45,290 nucleotides of DNA from a virus. The stretch is taken from positions 1-45,290 of the IMG/VR virus record IMGVR_UViG_3300045107_000867; one strand, 5' to 3'. Shown here piece by piece: positions 10,729 to 17,833 of the stretch (position 1 is the stretch's first letter; each line of letters starts with the position of its first letter). The position numbers and the translations under genes were made by a program. The notes beneath the pieces were generated by a model, which was given only the letters and a program-made list of their open reading frames with translations, did not search any database and was not told the origin of the DNA.

Positions 10729-10989
10729 ATGGCCGGGGAGGCGCACGAGGGCGTTGTGGAGTTCCGGGCCGATACGGTCGGTCGCGAAGTGATCCTGCTC
10801 GGCCGTGTCCAGGTCGGCGAGATCATGCGCAATGAAAGCGCGCGGCACCAGGCCTGCTTTCGCCTGATGCTGCCGGAGGCCTCGGCCTCGACCACATGGC
10901 GCCCGGCGCGCGACGTCGACGACGCGCGGCGGCTGGCGCTGATCAAGATCAACGATTGGCTCAATGCAGCCGGGCTGGTGCCGGCATGA
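10729..10989 (+). CDS. small hypothetical protein
   Basis: 86 residues with no recognised family. A strand-rich first half (GVVEFRADTVGREVILLGRVQVGEIM) and the SAR-like central block (RHQACFRLMLPE) suggest a small alpha/beta protein. The C-terminal helix (DDARRLALIKINDWLNAAGL) is typical of small phage proteins upstream of a primase. The ATG at 10729 begins 4 bp after the ParB stop, and its end overlaps the next start by 4 bp. Confidence 0.62.
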   Translation: MAGEAHEGVVEFRADTVGREVILLGRVQVGEIMRNESARHQACFRLMLPEASASTTWRPARDVDDARRLALIKINDWLNAAGLVPA

Positions 10990-11294
10990 AACCGCCCGGC
11001 AAAGTATCGCTGGCCGATATGCAGCTGCAGGCGCAGCTCGAGGCCGAGCGGATCGAGATCGGCCAGGCCGCGCTGGTCGCGGCCGGGATGCTGGCCGAGC
11101 CAGATCCCGGCATGATCAGGCGCCGCGATGCCTTCGCCGGCATCGTGCGGCTGCTCGACATGATCCAGAGCGACCAAGAGATCCTGCAGCAGCTCGACTA
11201 TCGCAGGAAGTTCGCCGCGAAGTTCACGGCCGAGAAGGCGGCCGAGGCGATCGCCGCCGGCGCCGCTGCAGAGATCGAGGTCGAGCCGGATTGA
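10986..11294 (+). CDS. small helical hypothetical protein upstream of the primase
   Basis: 102 residues, nearly all helix, rich in Ala, Glu and Gln, and probably coiled-coil forming (LADMQLQAQLEAERIEIGQAA; AGIVRLLDMIQSDQEILQQL). No family recognised. Its ATG overlaps the previous stop, and the last base of its TGA is the first base of the primase ATG, so translation is coupled. A helper of the replication protein is plausible from position only. Confidence 0.62.
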   Translation: MKPPGKVSLADMQLQAQLEAERIEIGQAALVAAGMLAEPDPGMIRRRDAFAGIVRLLDMIQSDQEILQQLDYRRKFAAKFTAEKAAEAIAAGAAAEIEVEPD

Positions 11295-14134
11295 TGATGA
11301 GCATGCTCGACCACGCGCTTGCCCTGGCCGCCCGCGGCTGGCCCGTCTTCCCATGTCATCCCGCGACCAAGCAGCCGCTGGTGAAAAGCGACGTGCCGGG
11401 CGAGGGCGGGCTGAAGCTTGCGACCATTGACGAGGCGAAGATCCGCGCCTGGTGGCAGCGCTGGCCGCAGGCCATGATCGGCCTGCCGACCGGCGCGCCG
11501 ATCGGCGCCTTCGTGGTCGATATCGACGCCGGCGAGGACAAGGCGACGGGCGAGGTGTTCGAGGCGGCCGCGCTGCAGCTCAACCTCGAGCGCGCGATCG
11601 GCGGGCCGCTGCCGGCGACCAGGTACGCGCTCACGCCGCGCGGCGGGGTGCATCTGTACTTCCAGCTGCCCGACGATGGCGAGGTCGGCAACCGGGCAAA
11701 CCTGCTCGGCAAGGGCTCGCGGATCGATATCCGCGGCGATGGCGGCTATGTCATCGCGCCGCCCTCGGTGCGCAACGATGGCGTCGCCTATGCCTGGGGT
11801 GATGATGCGCCCGACATCGCGATCGCACCAATGGCGCTGGTCGACCTGGTGCTCCGGCGCGGCGCCTTCGAAGAGAAGCAGGCCGGCGGATCCGGGATCG
11901 GCGCGCGTGCGGCCGCCGGCGTGAAGCCGCCTGCCGGCAAAGGCGGCGACAGCGCGATCGCCGTCGGCGACGAGGCCGTCCGCAAGTACGGCCTGTCCGC
12001 GCTCGATGCCGAGCTGCAGACCGTGCGCCAGGCCGGCCCCGGAGGCCGCAACCAGGCGCTCAACATCGCCAGCCTGAAACTGGCCCAGCTGGTCGCCGCC
12101 GGCGCGCTCAACGAGGCCTTCGTCCGCGCCGCGCTCGAGAACGCGGCAGGCGATTGCGGACTGATCAAGGACGACGGCATCCGCTCGGTGCGCGCCACGA
12201 TCGAGAGCGGCTTCCGCAAGGGCCGGACGCAGCCGCGCGACGTCGAGGAGATCCGCCGGCAGGCACAATCCCGCGCCTCGCGCCCCCATGGTCAGCGCGG
12301 CGCCAGCGCCGCGAGCGACCGCGAGAGCCGGCCGCGCGGCCGCGACGACGGTGCAGATGGGACTCGAGATGATCGCAGCAGGGAGGATGCCGACGCGGCC
12401 GACCGCATGCCCTCTCGCCGCCCGCCCTCCGCCGCCGGCGAGGCGCAGCCGCCCGACGACTTCCATCCTCCCGCTTCGTCGCACGCCCCTGCACCCCCGC
12501 CGGAGACGAATGGCAAGCCAAGCTCCCAAACGGGAGCAGCGGATTTCGCATCTGCCGGAAGGGGTGCGGGGAGCAAGCCGCCGGCGGAGACGGACGAGGC
12601 GCGCAACATCCGCCTGGCGTTCTTCCCGCTCACCGATCTCGGCAATGCCGAGCGGTTCCGCGAACGCTACAAGGACCGGCTGCTGTGGTGCCCGGCGATC
12701 GGCTGGCTCTCCTGGGACGGCCGGCGCTGGAGCCGCGAGGGCGCGGAGGAGCTGGTCAAGATCGCTGAGCACGACACGGTGCGCTCGATCCAGGAGGAAG
12801 CCAAGGCGCTGCGCGAGACCGGCTGCAAGGACGACAAGGACGCGCCGTGGGGCGCGAAAGACTTCGTGTTCAAGACCGACCGCGACGGCAACCGGACGCT
12901 CTATTCCGACAAGGTGGCGGCGTGGGGCCGCAGCTCGGAGGCCGTCAACAAGCTCGGCGCGCTGTCCAAGCGCGGGGCGCCTTACTTCGCGGTGACGATC
13001 GACAGGCTCGACGCCGACAAGATGAAGATCAACGTCCGCAACGGCACGCTGGTGATCGCCAAGCGGGCCGATGCCGACTATGTCGAGTTCCGGCCGCATG
13101 ATCCGGCCGACATGATCACCAAGCTGGCGCCGGTCGATTTCGACCCGGCGGCGGAGCGGCCCGTCTTCGATGCGTTCCTTCTTCGCGTGCAGCCACAGGC
13201 GGAGATGCGGGCGTTCCTGCAGGCCTGGCTGGGCGTCTCGCTCACCGGCGTCATCGAGCAGCTGCTGGCCTTCCTCTACGGCAAGGGATCGAACGGCAAG
13301 TCCGTGCTGATGGACGCCGTGTCCTATGTCGCCGGCGACTATGGCGAGACCGTCCCGATCGAGACCTTCCTCGATCATGGCAAGGCGCGCGGCGCCGGCC
13401 AGGCGACGCCGGATCTCGCCATCCTGCCGGGCGTTCGCATGCTGCGAACCTCCGAGCCGGAGAAGGGGGCGAAGCTGGCGGAGGCGCTGGTCAAGCTCGT
13501 CACCGGCGGCGAGCCGATCCAGGCGCGGCACCTCAACCGCGACTTCTTCAAGTTCTATCCGCAGTTCAAGCTGACGATGTCCGGCAACTACCGGCCGACG
13601 ATCTCGGGCACCGACGAAGGCATCTGGCGGCGCGTGCGACTGGTGCCGTTCGGCGTCACGATTCCGAAGGAGGAGCGCGACATCCATCTCGGCGACAAGC
13701 TGCGCGCCGAGGCCTCGGGCATTCTCAACTGGCTGCTCGATGGCCTGCGCGTCTGGCTCGACAAGGGCCTGCAGGAGCCTGCCGACGTGCTCGAGGCGAC
13801 GGCCGAATATCGCTCGGCCTCCGATCCGCTCGGCCGCTTCCTGCAGGCCTGCGTCGCCGACAGCATCGGCGACCGCGTGCAGTCGAGCGTGCTGCATCAG
13901 GTCTATGAGGCCTGGTGCAAGGCCTCCGGCGAGAACGCCTGGAAGAACCGCGGCCTGTCGCTGGCGATGCAGGAGCGCGGCTACAAGAGCAAGCAGTCAA
14001 ACGTGATGTGGTTCCTCGACATCAAGCTCACCAAGAGCGTGATGGACTTCCTCGACGCCGACGGCAACCCGCGCCGCATGACCGATGACGGCACGACGAC
14101 GGAGGCGGCAGATGCCGGCGATCTGCAGATTTGA
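11294..14134 (+). CDS. bifunctional primase/polymerase with SF3 (D5/P4-type) helicase
   Basis: 946 residues; the replication initiator-helicase. The N-terminal prim-pol domain (about 1-200) carries the metal-binding acidic motif VVDIDAG (D76, D78) and a GGVHLYF strand with its His. Residues about 300-430 are a low-complexity Arg/Ser/Pro linker. The C-terminal D5_N and SF3 helicase region has Walker A YGKGSNGKS (662-670) and the downstream helicase blocks around LPGVRMLRTSEPEKG and LTMSGNYRPTISG. P4 alpha-type proteins of this build both prime and unwind from an iteron-containing origin, which fits the repeats just downstream. Two in-frame ATGs (11294, 11297) exist; I took the first, which overlaps the preceding stop. 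Confidence 0.88.
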   Translation: MMSMLDHALALAARGWPVFPCHPATKQPLVKSDVPGEGGLKLATIDEAKIRAWWQRWPQAMIGLPTGAPIGAFVVDIDAGEDKATGEVFEAAALQLNLERAIGGPLPATRYALTPRGGVHLYFQLPDDGEVGNRANLLGKGSRIDIRGDGGYVIAPPSVRNDGVAYAWGDDAPDIAIAPMALVDLVLRRGAFEEKQAGGSGIGARAAAGVKPPAGKGGDSAIAVGDEAVRKYGLSALDAELQTVRQAGPGGRNQALNIASLKLAQLVAAGALNEAFVRAALENAAGDCGLIKDDGIRSVRATIESGFRKGRTQPRDVEEIRRQAQSRASRPHGQRGASAASDRESRPRGRDDGADGTRDDRSREDADAADRMPSRRPPSAAGEAQPPDDFHPPASSHAPAPPPETNGKPSSQTGAADFASAGRGAGSKPPAETDEARNIRLAFFPLTDLGNAERFRERYKDRLLWCPAIGWLSWDGRRWSREGAEELVKIAEHDTVRSIQEEAKALRETGCKDDKDAPWGAKDFVFKTDRDGNRTLYSDKVAAWGRSSEAVNKLGALSKRGAPYFAVTIDRLDADKMKINVRNGTLVIAKRADADYVEFRPHDPADMITKLAPVDFDPAAERPVFDAFLLRVQPQAEMRAFLQAWLGVSLTGVIEQLLAFLYGKGSNGKSVLMDAVSYVAGDYGETVPIETFLDHGKARGAGQATPDLAILPGVRMLRTSEPEKGAKLAEALVKLVTGGEPIQARHLNRDFFKFYPQFKLTMSGNYRPTISGTDEGIWRRVRLVPFGVTIPKEERDIHLGDKLRAEASGILNWLLDGLRVWLDKGLQEPADVLEATAEYRSASDPLGRFLQACVADSIGDRVQSSVLHQVYEAWCKASGENAWKNRGLSLAMQERGYKSKQSNVMWFLDIKLTKSVMDFLDADGNPRRMTDDGTTTEAADAGDLQI
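12522..12537. repeat. inverted CTCCC/GGGAG repeat in the primase linker
   Basis: GCTCCC and GGGAGC form a perfect 6-bp dyad with spacer AAAC in the region coding for the low-complexity linker. The same AAGCTCCCA core recurs in the repeat cluster downstream of this gene, so it may be an outlying copy. Confidence 0.5.
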
Positions 14135-14140
14135 CACGGC

Positions 14141-14405
14141 ACATCCTCCCAACCTCCCAAAGTCGGGAGGATCGAGGTTCGGCTAACGCGTTGAGATTTC
14201 AGCGGATGGGAGGTTGAGGGAATTTCGGGAGCTTGTTTCATATGTCACATGCGCGTGCGCGCGCGGGCGCACATATGACAAACGGAAATAAGCTCCCAAT
14301 CCTCCCATCCTCCCAATGGATTTGAGAAAGCATTGTCCTGCAATGCTTTTTCGAGACGGGAGGTTTGATGCGGGGCCTTAGGCAAGCTCCCATCGATCCT
14401 CCCGA
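14141..14405. repeat. CTCCC/GGGAG repeat cluster, candidate replication origin
   Basis: This gene-free stretch of about 265 bp carries eleven copies of CTCCC: seven on the plus strand (near 14146, 14154, 14292, 14301, 14309, 14386, 14398) and four as GGGAG (near 14165, 14208, 14227, 14358). Many continue as CTCCCAA or AAGCTCCC. The centre is a large imperfect palindrome: GGGAGCTTG and TCATATGT on the left, ACATATGA and AAGCTCCC on the right, around an alternating GC-rich core (14251-14270). It lies directly downstream of the prim-pol/SF3 helicase, the place where iteron-type origins often occur. Origin function is inferred. Confidence 0.55.
14327..14351 (+). terminator. hairpin with T-run after the replication operon
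   Basis: AAAGCATTG (14327-14335) pairs perfectly with CAATGCTTT (14341-14349) around TCCTG, followed by two more T. The stem is only 9 bp with three G-C pairs, so termination would be weak to moderate. It lies within the candidate origin cluster. Confidence 0.5.
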
Positions 14406-14436
14406 GAAATCCTTCCCCGCCGGGAAGGGTTTCTCG
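14403..14436 (+). other. 15-bp hairpin in the leader of the NusG-like gene
   Basis: CGAGAAATCCTTCCC (14403-14417) pairs with GGGAAGGGTTTCTCG (14422-14436) with one wobble pair and a CGCC tetraloop. No T-run follows. It ends 54 bp before the start of the NusG-like gene, so it could be a transcript-borne control or loading element. Confidence 0.55.
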
Positions 14437-14490
14437 AACCGGCAAGCGAGCCGGCCCTGCCAGCAAACCGGGTGGAGAACGGGATGTTGG

Positions 14491-15048
14491 ATGACGACGA
14501 CGAAACTGCCGGCCGCGTTCTCGCCGGAGGTGATGGCCGAAATGCTGTCGGCCGATGCGCGTGCGGAGATGGCGCGGCCCTGGTCGCCGGTCGACCCGAA
14601 CGTGGCGGAGCTCGGCCCGCTTGCGCGCTGGTACGTGCTCGAGGTGAGGAACAGGGACGTCGAGGCGGACCTGATCAAGCGGCGCTTCGGCATCTACGTG
14701 CCGGAGTTCGAAGAGACGATCATCTCGCGCGGGCGCAAGGTCGAGCGACGCGGGCCATTGATCCCGGGCTATGTGTTCGTGTTCCTCTGGGATGTAGGCG
14801 TGCAGCACCCTCACGATGAGGCGGACGCGAATTGGATGCGTGCGGTCACCACACCCGGCGTCACGGCCATCCTCGGCTGGTTGCCCGATGAGGAAATCGA
14901 CAGGTTGAGGGCGATCGAGAACGGCGAACGTCTGGACTCCCGCGCGCGTGCTCGCTTGCAGGAACGCATCCTGCGCAAGGTGCGGCCATCGGTCCGCCGC
15001 AAGGGCCGTCGTCTGAAGCGCAGGGGGAAAGCTGCGGCGCTCGCTTGA
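14491..15048 (+). CDS. NusG/RfaH-like NGN-domain protein, likely late antiterminator
   Basis: 185 residues. Residues 46-130 match the NusG N-terminal domain: RWYVLEVRNRDVEADLIKRR, GIYVPEF, the basic loop ISRGRKVERR, PLIPGYVFVFL and TTPGVTAILGW. NGN domains bind the RNA polymerase clamp and suppress pausing. No C-terminal KOW domain is visible; instead there is a strongly basic tail (residues 160-182, Arg/Lys-rich) that could bind nucleic acid. The ATG at 14491 was chosen because the domain follows it; the frame opens at 14365 and no strong Shine-Dalgarno is seen. Two intrinsic terminators separate it from the packaging genes, the classical position for a Q-like regulator. Confidence 0.8.
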   Translation: MTTTKLPAAFSPEVMAEMLSADARAEMARPWSPVDPNVAELGPLARWYVLEVRNRDVEADLIKRRFGIYVPEFEETIISRGRKVERRGPLIPGYVFVFLWDVGVQHPHDEADANWMRAVTTPGVTAILGWLPDEEIDRLRAIENGERLDSRARARLQERILRKVRPSVRRKGRRLKRRGKAAALA

Positions 15049-15074
15049 CTCGATGCGATGGAATCAGTCAAGCG
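15042..15074 (+). other. inverted repeat across the stop codon of the NusG-like gene
   Basis: CGCTTGACT (15042-15050) and AGTCAAGCG (15066-15074) form a perfect 9-bp stem with a 15-nt loop. The left arm contains the TGA stop of the NusG-like gene. No T-run follows. It may act on RNA stability or mark a protein binding site. Confidence 0.5.
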
Positions 15075-15184
15075 GGAATGGAACGTAAAGCCCCCTCTGA
15101 TCGTATCTCCCGCAAGGTGTGTGATCTCAGAGCCCGGCGGACCGAAGCGGACCGCGCTTCTCAATCCCTCAATGTGCCCAAAGC

Positions 15185-15215
15185 AAGCCCGGCCCTGATC
15201 ATCAGGCCGGGCTTT
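15185..15215 (+). terminator. intrinsic terminator 1 before the late operon
   Basis: AAGCCCGGCC and GGCCGGGCTT form a GC-rich stem of 10 bp that can extend through CTGAT/ATCAG with one bulged C, followed by TTT. The reading frame around it has no sign of coding. It lies 137 bp after the NusG-like gene. Confidence 0.8.
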
Positions 15216-15281
15216 GCCGTGTGTAGGGTAGGCGTCGGGCTGTTCCCCAGTCCGGTGTCATCCTCCAGGGAACGAACCTTC

Positions 15282-15322
15282 AAGGGCTGCTCGTCCGGAC
15301 AAGCCGAGCAGCCCTTGCTTTT
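15282..15322 (+). terminator. intrinsic terminator 2, just before the HNH gene
   Basis: AAGGGCTGCTCG (15282-15293) and CGAGCAGCCCTT (15305-15316) form a perfect 12-bp stem with an 11-nt loop, followed by GCTTTT. It ends four bases before the ATG of the HNH gene, so transcription from upstream must pass it to express the late genes. Confidence 0.78.
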
Positions 15323-15326
15323 GTAG

Positions 15327-15605
15327 ATGGCAAAACTCCCGTGGAAAGCCTGGTACAACACGGCGCGCTGGCAACGGCTCAGGCTCGCGATCTTCCTGCG
15401 TGATCTCTACACCTGCCAATGCGGCTGCGGCCGCGTCGAGGCCGACACCTCGCAGCTGGTGTGTGACCACAAGAAACCCCATCGTGGTGACGTCCGCCTG
15501 TTCTGGGATGAGGACAACCTGCAGACCCTGCTGAAGTCCTGTCACGACAGCAGGAAGCAGAAGCAGGAACAGCAATCGCTCCACACCCGTGGCGTCTGGC
15601 ACTGA
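15327..15605 (+). CDS. HNH endonuclease of the packaging module
   Basis: 92 residues. The zinc-binding and catalytic elements are in order: YTCQCGCG (C30, C32/C34), the HNH core VCDHKKPHRGD (D47-H48), the central DEDNLQTL (N64) and SCHDSRK (C72-H73). In HK97-type phages a small HNH protein works with the terminase to cut at the cos site. Its place immediately before the small terminase fits that role. The start follows directly behind the second terminator and has no good Shine-Dalgarno. Confidence 0.88.
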   Translation: MAKLPWKAWYNTARWQRLRLAIFLRDLYTCQCGCGRVEADTSQLVCDHKKPHRGDVRLFWDEDNLQTLLKSCHDSRKQKQEQQSLHTRGVWH

Positions 15606-15684
15606 AGGGGTAGGGGGTGGGTAAATCCTCACAGCCTTTCGCTCCCCGGACCGGCCCCTCCCACATTCGCGGATTTTTTTTCTT

Positions 15685-16167
15685 ATGGGCGACGTTTTTG
15701 ACCTGTTCGGCAACCCGGTGCGGGCTGGCTTCGGCCAGCGCGGACGGCCGCCGTATGAGCCGAGCGAGGAGGATCGCAACAAGATCAAGCTGTTGCTGGC
15801 GCTCGGCAAGTCGATCTCGATCATGGCCAACGCGCTCGGCGTCTCGCCGGCGACGGTGAAGCGCTATTTTAGAGCCGAGCTGAAGAAGCGCGACGCGATG
15901 CGCGATCAGATGGAAGCGGCCTATGCGCTACAGCTCTGGCGCGGCGTCCAGGACGGCAACGCCGGCGCCATGCGGCTGTGGCTGGCCTATGTCGAGCGCA
16001 ACGACCGCATGGAAGCCGAGACCACGATGGCCGCGCAGCCCGCCGACAAGCCCGCGGCCGAGCGCATCGGCAAGAAGCTGATCGACGAGCAGCGCGCCCT
16101 CGACGCCGACGCGGACCTGATGTCGGAGCTGGAGCAGGAAGCGGCCGCACAGAATGCCGTCCACTGA
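15685..16167 (+). CDS. terS: terminase small subunit
   Basis: 160 residues. Residues 20-60 hold an HTH (RNKIKLLLALGKSISIMANALGVSPATVKRYF) that would recognise the packaging site. The remainder is helical (DQMEAAYALQLWRGVQDGNAGAMRLWLAYVERND) and probably makes the oligomerisation ring, and the acidic C-terminus would contact the large subunit. Upstream lie 79 bp with a run of eight T and no clear Shine-Dalgarno. A cos site would be expected between the HNH gene and this one, but I cannot identify it. It overlaps the large subunit gene by 14 bp. Confidence 0.85.
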   Translation: MGDVFDLFGNPVRAGFGQRGRPPYEPSEEDRNKIKLLLALGKSISIMANALGVSPATVKRYFRAELKKRDAMRDQMEAAYALQLWRGVQDGNAGAMRLWLAYVERNDRMEAETTMAAQPADKPAAERIGKKLIDEQRALDADADLMSELEQEAAAQNAVH

Positions 16168-17833
16168 TCTGCCGCGCTTCGCATGCCCGGACTGGTGGGA
16201 ACGCATCCAGTCCGGCCAGGTGCCGATGGCCGAGGTGCCGCTCAACGAAGCCAAGGCCGCGCGGGCGCTGGCGTTCTTCAACCGGCTGCGCCTGCCGGAC
16301 GTGCCGGGCAACCCGCCGATGGCGGAGGCCTGCGGCGACTGGTTCAAGGCGCTGCTGGTCGCGTTTCTGGCCAGCGAAGATCCGGCGACGAAGCGCCGGC
16401 TGGTCTGGGAACTGCTTTGCATGGTTCCCAAGAAGAATTCGAAGACGACGAACGTTGCCGCGCTCGGGCTTACCGCGCTGTTCATGGAGGAGGCGCCCAA
16501 CCAGCAGATGCTGCTCGTCGGGCCCAGCCAGAACATCTCCGAGCGCTGCTTCGACCAGGCGCAGGGCATGATCCGCCTGGACAAGCGGCTCGATGCGATC
16601 TTCAAGGTGCAGGATCACCTCAAGTGCATCACGCGCCGCAAGACCGGGACCAAGCTCGACGTCAAGACGTTCGACACCTCGATCGTCGTCGGCGAGATCC
16701 CGATCCTGACGATCATCGACGAGGTGCACGAGCTCGGCAAGAAGGCCAAGGCCGCGGCCGTGATGCAGCAGATCCGCGGCGGCGGCATCACGATGCGCGG
16801 CGGCCAGGTGCTGATGATCACGACGCAGTCGGACGAGCCGCCGGCCGGCATCTGGCGCACCGAGCTGAAGAAGGCCCGCGCCATCCGCGACGGCAAGGGC
16901 GGTCCGAATCCGATCCTGCTGCCGATCCTGTACGAGTATCCGCAGGAGCTGCAGCGCAACCAGGACTACTGGCGCAACGTCGACAATTGGGCGCCGCTGC
17001 TGCCGAACCTCGGCCGCTCGATCGACCCGCAGCGCCTGCTCGAGGACTACCAGAACAACGGCAAGGTCAACGAGGAGGCCGAGCGGATCTGGGCCAGCCA
17101 GCATCTCAACATCGAGATCGGCGTCGGCCTCGGCGCCGATGGCTGGCGTGGCGCTGACTTCTGGGAAGGCGCTGCCGACGCGACCCTGACGCTGGAGTCG
17201 CTGCTGGCGCGCAGCGACGCCGTCACGATGGGCGCCGACGGCGGCGGCCTCGACGATCTCATGGGGCTCGCCGTGATCGGCCGCGACAAGACCACGCGCG
17301 AATGGCTGTCCTGGTGCCATGCCTTCGCCGATCCGAAGGTGCTGGAGCGGCGCAAGGAGATCGCGCCGCAGCTGCGCGACTTCGAGGGGGAGGGCTCGCT
17401 GACGATTGCCGACGGTGCCACGCGCCATCGCCGGTTCGTCGAGCTGGTCGCGCAGGTGAGGGCGTCGGGATTGCTGCCGCCGAAGGATGCGGTCGGCGTC
17501 GATCCAAACAACGCCGCGGCCGTCTTCGAGGCTCTGGCGGAAGCGGGCATCGTGCCGGAGCAGATCCGCCGCCTGATGCAGGGCCCGGCCCTGGCGCCGG
17601 CGATGTACGGGCTGGAACTAAAGCTGGACGACGGCACCTTCTGGCACGCCGACCAGCTGCTGATGGCCTGGGTGATGGGCAATGCCAAGGTCGAACCGAA
17701 GGGCAACCACCTGATGATCACCAAGCAGGTCTCCGGCCGCGCCAAGATCGACCCGCTGATCGCGCTGTTCGAGGCTGCGATCCTCATGAGCTGGAATCCG
17801 GCGCCGCAGGGCGTCTCGTTCTGGCAATCCTGA
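16154..17833 (+). CDS. terL: terminase large subunit
   Basis: 559 residues, the DNA-packaging ATPase and nuclease. The ATPase half has a Walker A-type P-loop MVPKKNSKTTN (90-100; a deviant form common in this terminase group), Walker B LTIIDEVHEL with D189-E190, and a coupling motif near MITTQSDEP. The nuclease half has the acidic residue in MGADGGGLDD (D362) and further Asp/His residues near FWHADQLLMAWVMGN. Length and motifs match HK97-type TerL. The start overlaps the small subunit gene, and the portal gene follows 10 bp after the stop. Confidence 0.93.
   Translation: MPSTDLPRFACPDWWERIQSGQVPMAEVPLNEAKAARALAFFNRLRLPDVPGNPPMAEACGDWFKALLVAFLASEDPATKRRLVWELLCMVPKKNSKTTNVAALGLTALFMEEAPNQQMLLVGPSQNISERCFDQAQGMIRLDKRLDAIFKVQDHLKCITRRKTGTKLDVKTFDTSIVVGEIPILTIIDEVHELGKKAKAAAVMQQIRGGGITMRGGQVLMITTQSDEPPAGIWRTELKKARAIRDGKGGPNPILLPILYEYPQELQRNQDYWRNVDNWAPLLPNLGRSIDPQRLLEDYQNNGKVNEEAERIWASQHLNIEIGVGLGADGWRGADFWEGAADATLTLESLLARSDAVTMGADGGGLDDLMGLAVIGRDKTTREWLSWCHAFADPKVLERRKEIAPQLRDFEGEGSLTIADGATRHRRFVELVAQVRASGLLPPKDAVGVDPNNAAAVFEALAEAGIVPEQIRRLMQGPALAPAMYGLELKLDDGTFWHADQLLMAWVMGNAKVEPKGNHLMITKQVSGRAKIDPLIALFEAAILMSWNPAPQGVSFWQS

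Follow-up and report, generated by a model that had tools for sequence, protein, structure and literature searches.

In phage lambda, 6S RNA is placed between pR' and tR', and Q, which is positioned where early genes give way to late ones, has a promoter-proximal DNA site as its signal. LoaP, a NusG paralogue, instead contacts RNA: it binds a hairpin of the leader and helps polymerase to read through intrinsic terminators (PMC12691694); in the LoaP-dfn system of Bacillus velezensis, the RNA element, a single UNCG hairpin, lies between a promoter and an intrinsic terminator, and read-through leads into long polyketide operons. A transcribed phage element that allows escape from termination is also known, i.e., the put RNA of HK022 (PMC9378689), which works alone, without a phage protein. 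RfaH, finally, is loaded at ops, a DNA or pause site. The locus described here looks like a previously undescribed, RNA-guided late-gene switch in viruses of rhizobia and their relatives. In the open-access literature, we found no paper on the pairing of a phage NusG with an RNA element or on a phage-encoded NusG as a late regulator, and the paper on phi3LM21, one of the phages with the same gene order, does not mention antitermination.

The window, by which we mean the whole stretch of 45,290 nucleotides that was analysed, is IMG/VR virus record IMGVR_UViG_3300045107_000867 and stems from a phage with kinship to Bradyrhizobium and Tardiphaga prophages. Its terminase large subunit shares 71% identity with that of Mesorhizobium phage vB_MseS-P1, and the portal gene comes after the terminase genes. 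The features relevant here are the following:

10964-14134: primase gene, upstream of the NGN gene
14491-15048, + strand: NGN-domain gene, NusG paralogue of 185 aa with a basic tail and without KOW (PF02357, AF2 model, RfaH/NusG fold matches)
15126-15184, + strand: class C RNA element, candidate loading signal for the NGN protein (covariance model R2, covariation)
15144-15160, + strand: hairpin P2 within the class C element, GAAGCG-GACCG-CGCTTC (six pairs, alignment of 23 sequences)
15174-15184, + strand: conserved tail of the class C element, GTGCCCAAAGC (alignment A5; GYGC..AAGC tails are alike in classes A and B)
15185-15214, + strand: intrinsic terminator T1, 10-bp stem with a short U-tract (fold z-score, terminator scan)
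15231-15259, + strand: hairpin between T1 and T2, at the place taken by the MmgR/suhB-like small RNA in relatives (fold; no Rfam match in the window)
15281-15317, + strand: intrinsic terminator T2, 13-bp stem followed by CTTTTG (fold z-score, terminator scan)
15327-15605, + strand: HNH endonuclease, first late gene (PHROG 589, E = 4e-25)
15685-16167, + strand: probable terminase small subunit (phrog_12540, which has no stated function; position; annotated homologue in locus L003)
16154-17833, + strand: terminase large subunit (phrog_9, E = 2e-87)

The NGN gene, with its ATG at 14491 and its stop codon ending at 15048, was originally predicted to encode a 185-aa protein with a basic tail and no visible KOW domain, a description that our searches bear out. 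Sequence, Pfam, and structure all identify the protein as a NusG paralogue: PF02357 (NusG) scores 35.1 bits (cut-off, 22.2) over residues 46 to 139, and the AF2 model (pLDDT, 84) has RfaH and NusG as its best PDB matches, with E values down to 6e-7. The window protein has neither a KOW domain, for which Pfam gave no match, nor the helical-hairpin domain of RfaH; KOW is present in the homologues that accompany RNA element classes A and B (see below), e.g., in phi3LM21. Scores for the equivalogs of LoaP (NCBIfam NF033641, 12.8 bits; cut-off, 125), RfaH (TIGR01955, 20 bits; cut-off, 144.5), and NusG (15.5 bits, with equivalog cut-offs of 125 to 145) stayed far below threshold, and family searches of the window protein returned NusG families only, without a match to lambda Q. 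The basic C-terminal tail is common to the window protein and to those of loci L256, L260, L261, L230, and L059; since the first four of these loci carry the same kind of tail, an explanation of the missing KOW domain by frameshift or truncation was rejected. Other KOW-less NGN proteins (L227, L257, L263, L266, and L272 to L281) share a short conserved segment at the C-terminus, AFxDxxxxLDxExRNQTLRKALGL, which has been lost in the window's subclade, with the basic tail in its place.

Used as the sole query, the window NGN protein did not find its viral relatives; these were recovered by searches anchored on HNH and small-terminase genes, which yielded about 200 to 215 loci. NGN homologues were present at 81 of them, in every case upstream of HNH and on the same strand. 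The order NGN-terminator-HNH-terminase was found in dozens of phages and prophages of alphaproteobacteria, among them Mesorhizobium phage vB_MseS-P1 (NusG-HNH-TerS-TerL), Sinorhizobium phi3LM21, and Bradyrhizobium ppBeUSDA76-1 and ppBdUSDA122-1. The NGN genes of the two Bradyrhizobium elements are annotated 'ABC transporter' and 'hypothetical', and the names 'ABC transporter substrate-binding protein' and 'hypothetical protein' are those given to NGN proteins WAX24340.1 (phage OP596613.1) and WAX24288.1 (phage OP596612.1), respectively. Extra DNA lies between the NGN stop and HNH in L011, L012, L013, L016, L019, L026, L032, and L139; some of these insertions carry short genes with their own terminators, making this a slot for accessory ('moron') genes.

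The window had been thought to reproduce the logic of lambda Q and tR' with a NusG paralogue as the regulator. The core of this idea, a NusG paralogue as putative processive antiterminator for the late genes in the position of Q, is well supported by comparison, given the conserved gene order and the finding that, in enteric phage PPompW_EH2246, which has a related terminase, the slot of the NGN gene is filled by lambda Q. Moreover, both systems sit at the early/late border, with one or more terminators before the late genes, and, in many relatives of the window, the last terminator is also that of a small RNA. Parts of the proposed logic need revision, however: because neither a late promoter nor a promoter-proximal site is evident, the logic is nearer to that of LoaP-dfn than to that of Q, and the candidate signal is a transcribed element ahead of the terminators, in contrast to the DNA site of Q. 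The terminators are present, whereas a late promoter was not found, albeit by weak scans: 9 weak matches were listed in positions 14100 to 15700, compared to 12.6 expected, and a second scan of the window gave none. Such scans are low-powered in alphaproteobacteria and, hence, weak evidence; with this caveat, the original statement that no promoter is evident between the last terminator and the packaging genes agrees with a region in which nothing rises above background.

Both terminators were recovered where they had been predicted. An independent scan returned stems at 15185-15214 and 15281-15317 (fold z-scores of -3.5 and -3.6 for T1 and T2, respectively), and the T-run of T2 extends to 15322, with four bases left before the HNH start codon at 15327. 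The U-tract of T1 is TTT only, and a stricter consensus scan listed neither terminator, because the U-tracts of both are short. The combination of gene and terminator, a search for which in related prophages had been proposed as a check, does recur: a mean of 0.86 terminators falls within the first 300 nt past the NGN stop across 98 distinct loci, against 0.06 per 300 nt in dinucleotide shuffles as well as in the upstream control, a 14-fold enrichment. Just 4 nt part the U-tract of T2 from the HNH start codon, both in the window (15317-15327) and in several relatives, and a Shine-Dalgarno sequence for HNH is seen nowhere outside the terminator stem.

A reading of the intergenic gaps showed that conserved sequence sits between the NGN stop and T1. 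It is an RNA element that comes in at least three classes. That of the window, class C, is shared with the relatives of its KOW-less NGN protein, has the form GGYGGAYYGAAGCG-loop-CGCTTC-NN-CAATCCCTCAMTGTGYCCAAAGC, and occupies 15126-15184, directly 5' of T1. The window scores 56.8 bits (E = 3e-11) against covariance model R2, being itself part of the training set. In 765 kb, the class C model found 25 loci (the window and 24 others), all after NGN genes and including one match from outside the training set (L265); in 300 genomes, it gave two matches only, both adjoining NGN genes. Covariation amounts to 0.257, compared to 0.095 for the control. Hairpin P2 is paired in 99.3% of cells across 23 sequences, with three pairs changed on both sides, and the stem covaries, as in GAAGAGACC/GGTCTCTTC of L274 and GAATCGAG/CTCGGTTC of L283.

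Class A, from Rhizobiaceae phages, is a structured RNA of about 160 nt, the first base of which is the nucleotide after the NGN stop codon. It consists of a long-range helix, a hairpin (P1), a two-part hairpin (P2), and a tail, AGTGC[GNAA/TACN]GCTATG. In 20 sequences, 94.1% of cells are paired, double changes occur in 64 cells (22 in shuffles), and covariation is 0.459 versus 0.225 ± 0.017 (reached in 0 of 500 shuffles), dropping to at most 0.19 once the pairing partner is shifted by one base; in the long-range helix, each of the five pairs is altered on both sides. Within 1.7 Mb of loci, strong matches to the class A covariance model were found only directly after NGN genes, including four (L003, L066, L070, and L185) that had been left out of model building. 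The model alone gave 38 matches in 34 of 299 Rhizobiaceae genomes, and 30 of the 30 matches inspected begin where an NGN gene ends, a set that takes in L284 and L285, two genomes with loci in the training set. A second set of 19 new sequences, with an alignment fitted to the covariance model and hence biased towards structure, is 96.5% paired, with a covariation of 0.490 versus 0.184. Rfam 15 has no match for the element, making it a candidate new RNA family. The covariation of base pairs cannot by itself exclude a role as single-stranded DNA.

Class B, CCTGATTCCAGG-NNGACGCGCGAAGCG, seen by eye only, belongs to KOW-bearing Bradyrhizobium phages. All three classes end in GYGC..AAGC-like tails, which hints at, without proving, a common origin. 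When 124 NGN proteins are placed on a tree, a single branch suffices to set off each of the three classes, and element class changes just twice on that tree (shuffled mean, 34.3). Element class thus follows NGN clade, with gene and element linked one to one. Conservation and linkage of this kind would also be expected if the element were an autoregulatory or trans-acting 3'-UTR RNA, controlling NGN expression or RNA stability without a part in late read-through, and class A does start right at the NGN stop codon. Still, the element lies directly ahead of the terminators and the late genes, the insertion that parts it from the NGN gene in L265 leaves it on the terminator side, and the target of NusG paralogues is the elongating polymerase, so that we give this explanation only about one chance in ten's worth of credence.

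We therefore favor, at a probability of roughly 70%, a reading of these sequences in which a cognate RNA loads the NusG paralogue, which would take RNA polymerase past T1 and T2 into the late genes. The phage would encode the specialised paralogue as its last early gene, and the NGN transcript would run on into the element just beyond the stop codon (a hairpin and the tail GTGCCCAAAGC in the window; a bigger RNA with several helices in phages of Rhizobiaceae) before reaching the intrinsic terminator(s), where polymerase would initially halt. Once accumulated, the NGN protein would bind the nascent element, join the polymerase through it, and remain at the polymerase site that NusG and RfaH use; the modified polymerase would pass T1 and T2, and HNH, terminase, and morphogenesis genes would be expressed. 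We infer that timing would follow from accumulation of the protein and that a separate late promoter would be unnecessary. As in LoaP-dfn, an RNA element linked to a NusG paralogue lies upstream of a terminator, and read-through into a long operon is predicted. The element is analogous to the dfn hairpin rather than that hairpin itself: it follows the paralogue's own gene, class A is a multi-helix RNA, and the presumed targets are the late genes of a phage, not polyketide operons. The locus also differs from HK022 put in that RNA and NusG paralogue invariably go together. Counting against this explanation, strong terminators are missing from the first 300 nt after the stop at about one-third of the NGN loci, the element of L151 is followed by no visible terminator before HNH, the U-tract of T1 is short, and in sphingomonad and Rhodobacter NGN loci a recognisable element is missing, as are, mostly, the terminators. 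If true, it would account for late-gene activation in many alphaproteobacterial temperate phages that lack Q, extend RNA-guided NusG paralogues such as LoaP to phages and Pseudomonadota, and provide a natural collection of matched protein-RNA pairs for the study of target choice by NusG paralogues.

The stretch between T1 and T2 holds a further element in one branch of these phages. Rfam family RF00519 (suhB/MmgR, an alphaproteobacterial small RNA) scores above its gathering threshold there in 26 related loci (L005 and 25 further ones, two of which are one contig), and T2 is the small RNA's own terminator in these loci. The corresponding stretch of the window gave no match to RF00519 up to an E value of 10 but retains a hairpin, TCCTCC, and T2 at equivalent places. 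Host genomes have a separate chromosomal mmgR copy with the same body and with promoter-like sequence upstream, where the phage copies have T1. An MmgR-family small RNA ending at the last terminator would parallel lambda 6S RNA, the position of which it shares. It is tempting, if somewhat short of an even bet, to see a large family of coevolving pairs, each made up of a phage NusG paralogue and a structured RNA of its own, as an RNA-addressed late switch that replaces lambda Q across alphaproteobacterial temperate phages, and the default product of which, in Bradyrhizobium-type phages, would be a captured host MmgR-type RNA that might act on the host during lysogeny.

Just past T1, and past other terminators as well, a TAGGGT(G)TGCGGT motif occurs (L009, L017, L018, L059, and others) that might serve as a -10 box, be left over from a start region, or mark where the MmgR-like RNA begins; TAGGGT also resembles the ribosome-binding site and start codon of Rhizobiaceae loci. 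This motif is relevant to the possibility that T1 and T2 merely end early (and small RNA) transcription, with a late promoter or activator acting between T1 and HNH and the NGN protein acting elsewhere or aiding processivity. Tandem terminators are able to insulate, MmgR-like RNAs found elsewhere come with a promoter of their own, and the motif is kept past T1. As a -10 box, however, it is doubtful, being conserved without a -35-like sequence and present after other terminators, and, with window promoter scans not above background and the constant co-occurrence of NGN gene and RNA element left unexplained, we consider such insulation unlikely.

Some copies of the motif bear the ops-like sequence GCGGTAGCG, which agrees with the start of ops, GGCGGTAG (PMC5995543), and occurs no further than 400 nt from the NGN stop in 12 of 20 class B and 8 of 29 class C loci, against a background elsewhere of 0.002 to 0.011 per 400 nt. 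Given the NGN fold and RfaH as the best structural match, loading might be imagined to occur RfaH-style at this DNA or pause site rather than at the RNA element. This seems highly improbable: GCGGTAGCG is found in none of the 43 class A loci nor in the window, and was rejected as a general loading site for that reason; the ops-like core GCGGTAGC is likewise missing from the 400 nt past the NGN stop in the window and class A; and the position of GCGGTAGCG is past T1. Its presence may be mere inheritance, because the MmgR-like RNA begins with it and a chromosomal mmgR copy (L218) contains a closely similar form.

The most likely loading signal is thus the element at 15126-15184, between the NGN stop and T1, and neither of the hairpins initially proposed for that role, one in the leader and one over the stop codon. 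The former is real and strong (14227-14297; -41 kcal/mol; z-score, -6.5) and kept in close relatives L052, L053, and L059; the latter is not significant (z-score, -1.1) and was not found preserved as a hairpin in the relatives inspected. Since the leader hairpin belongs to the repeats beside the primase gene and is missing upstream of NGN in L144, a replication-related role is more likely. The repeat-rich gap of some 350 nt that separates the primase and NGN genes (14135-14490) combines this very strong hairpin with CTCCCA/TGGGAG motifs repeated in both orientations, conserved in the same three relatives, and is a candidate replication origin with iterons; the short motif by itself is not rare in the window. 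On the late side, the sequence separating HNH from the small terminase gene (15606-15684) is G-rich, then C-rich, with a T-tract at its end, similar to the situation in L003, and is a possible cos site.
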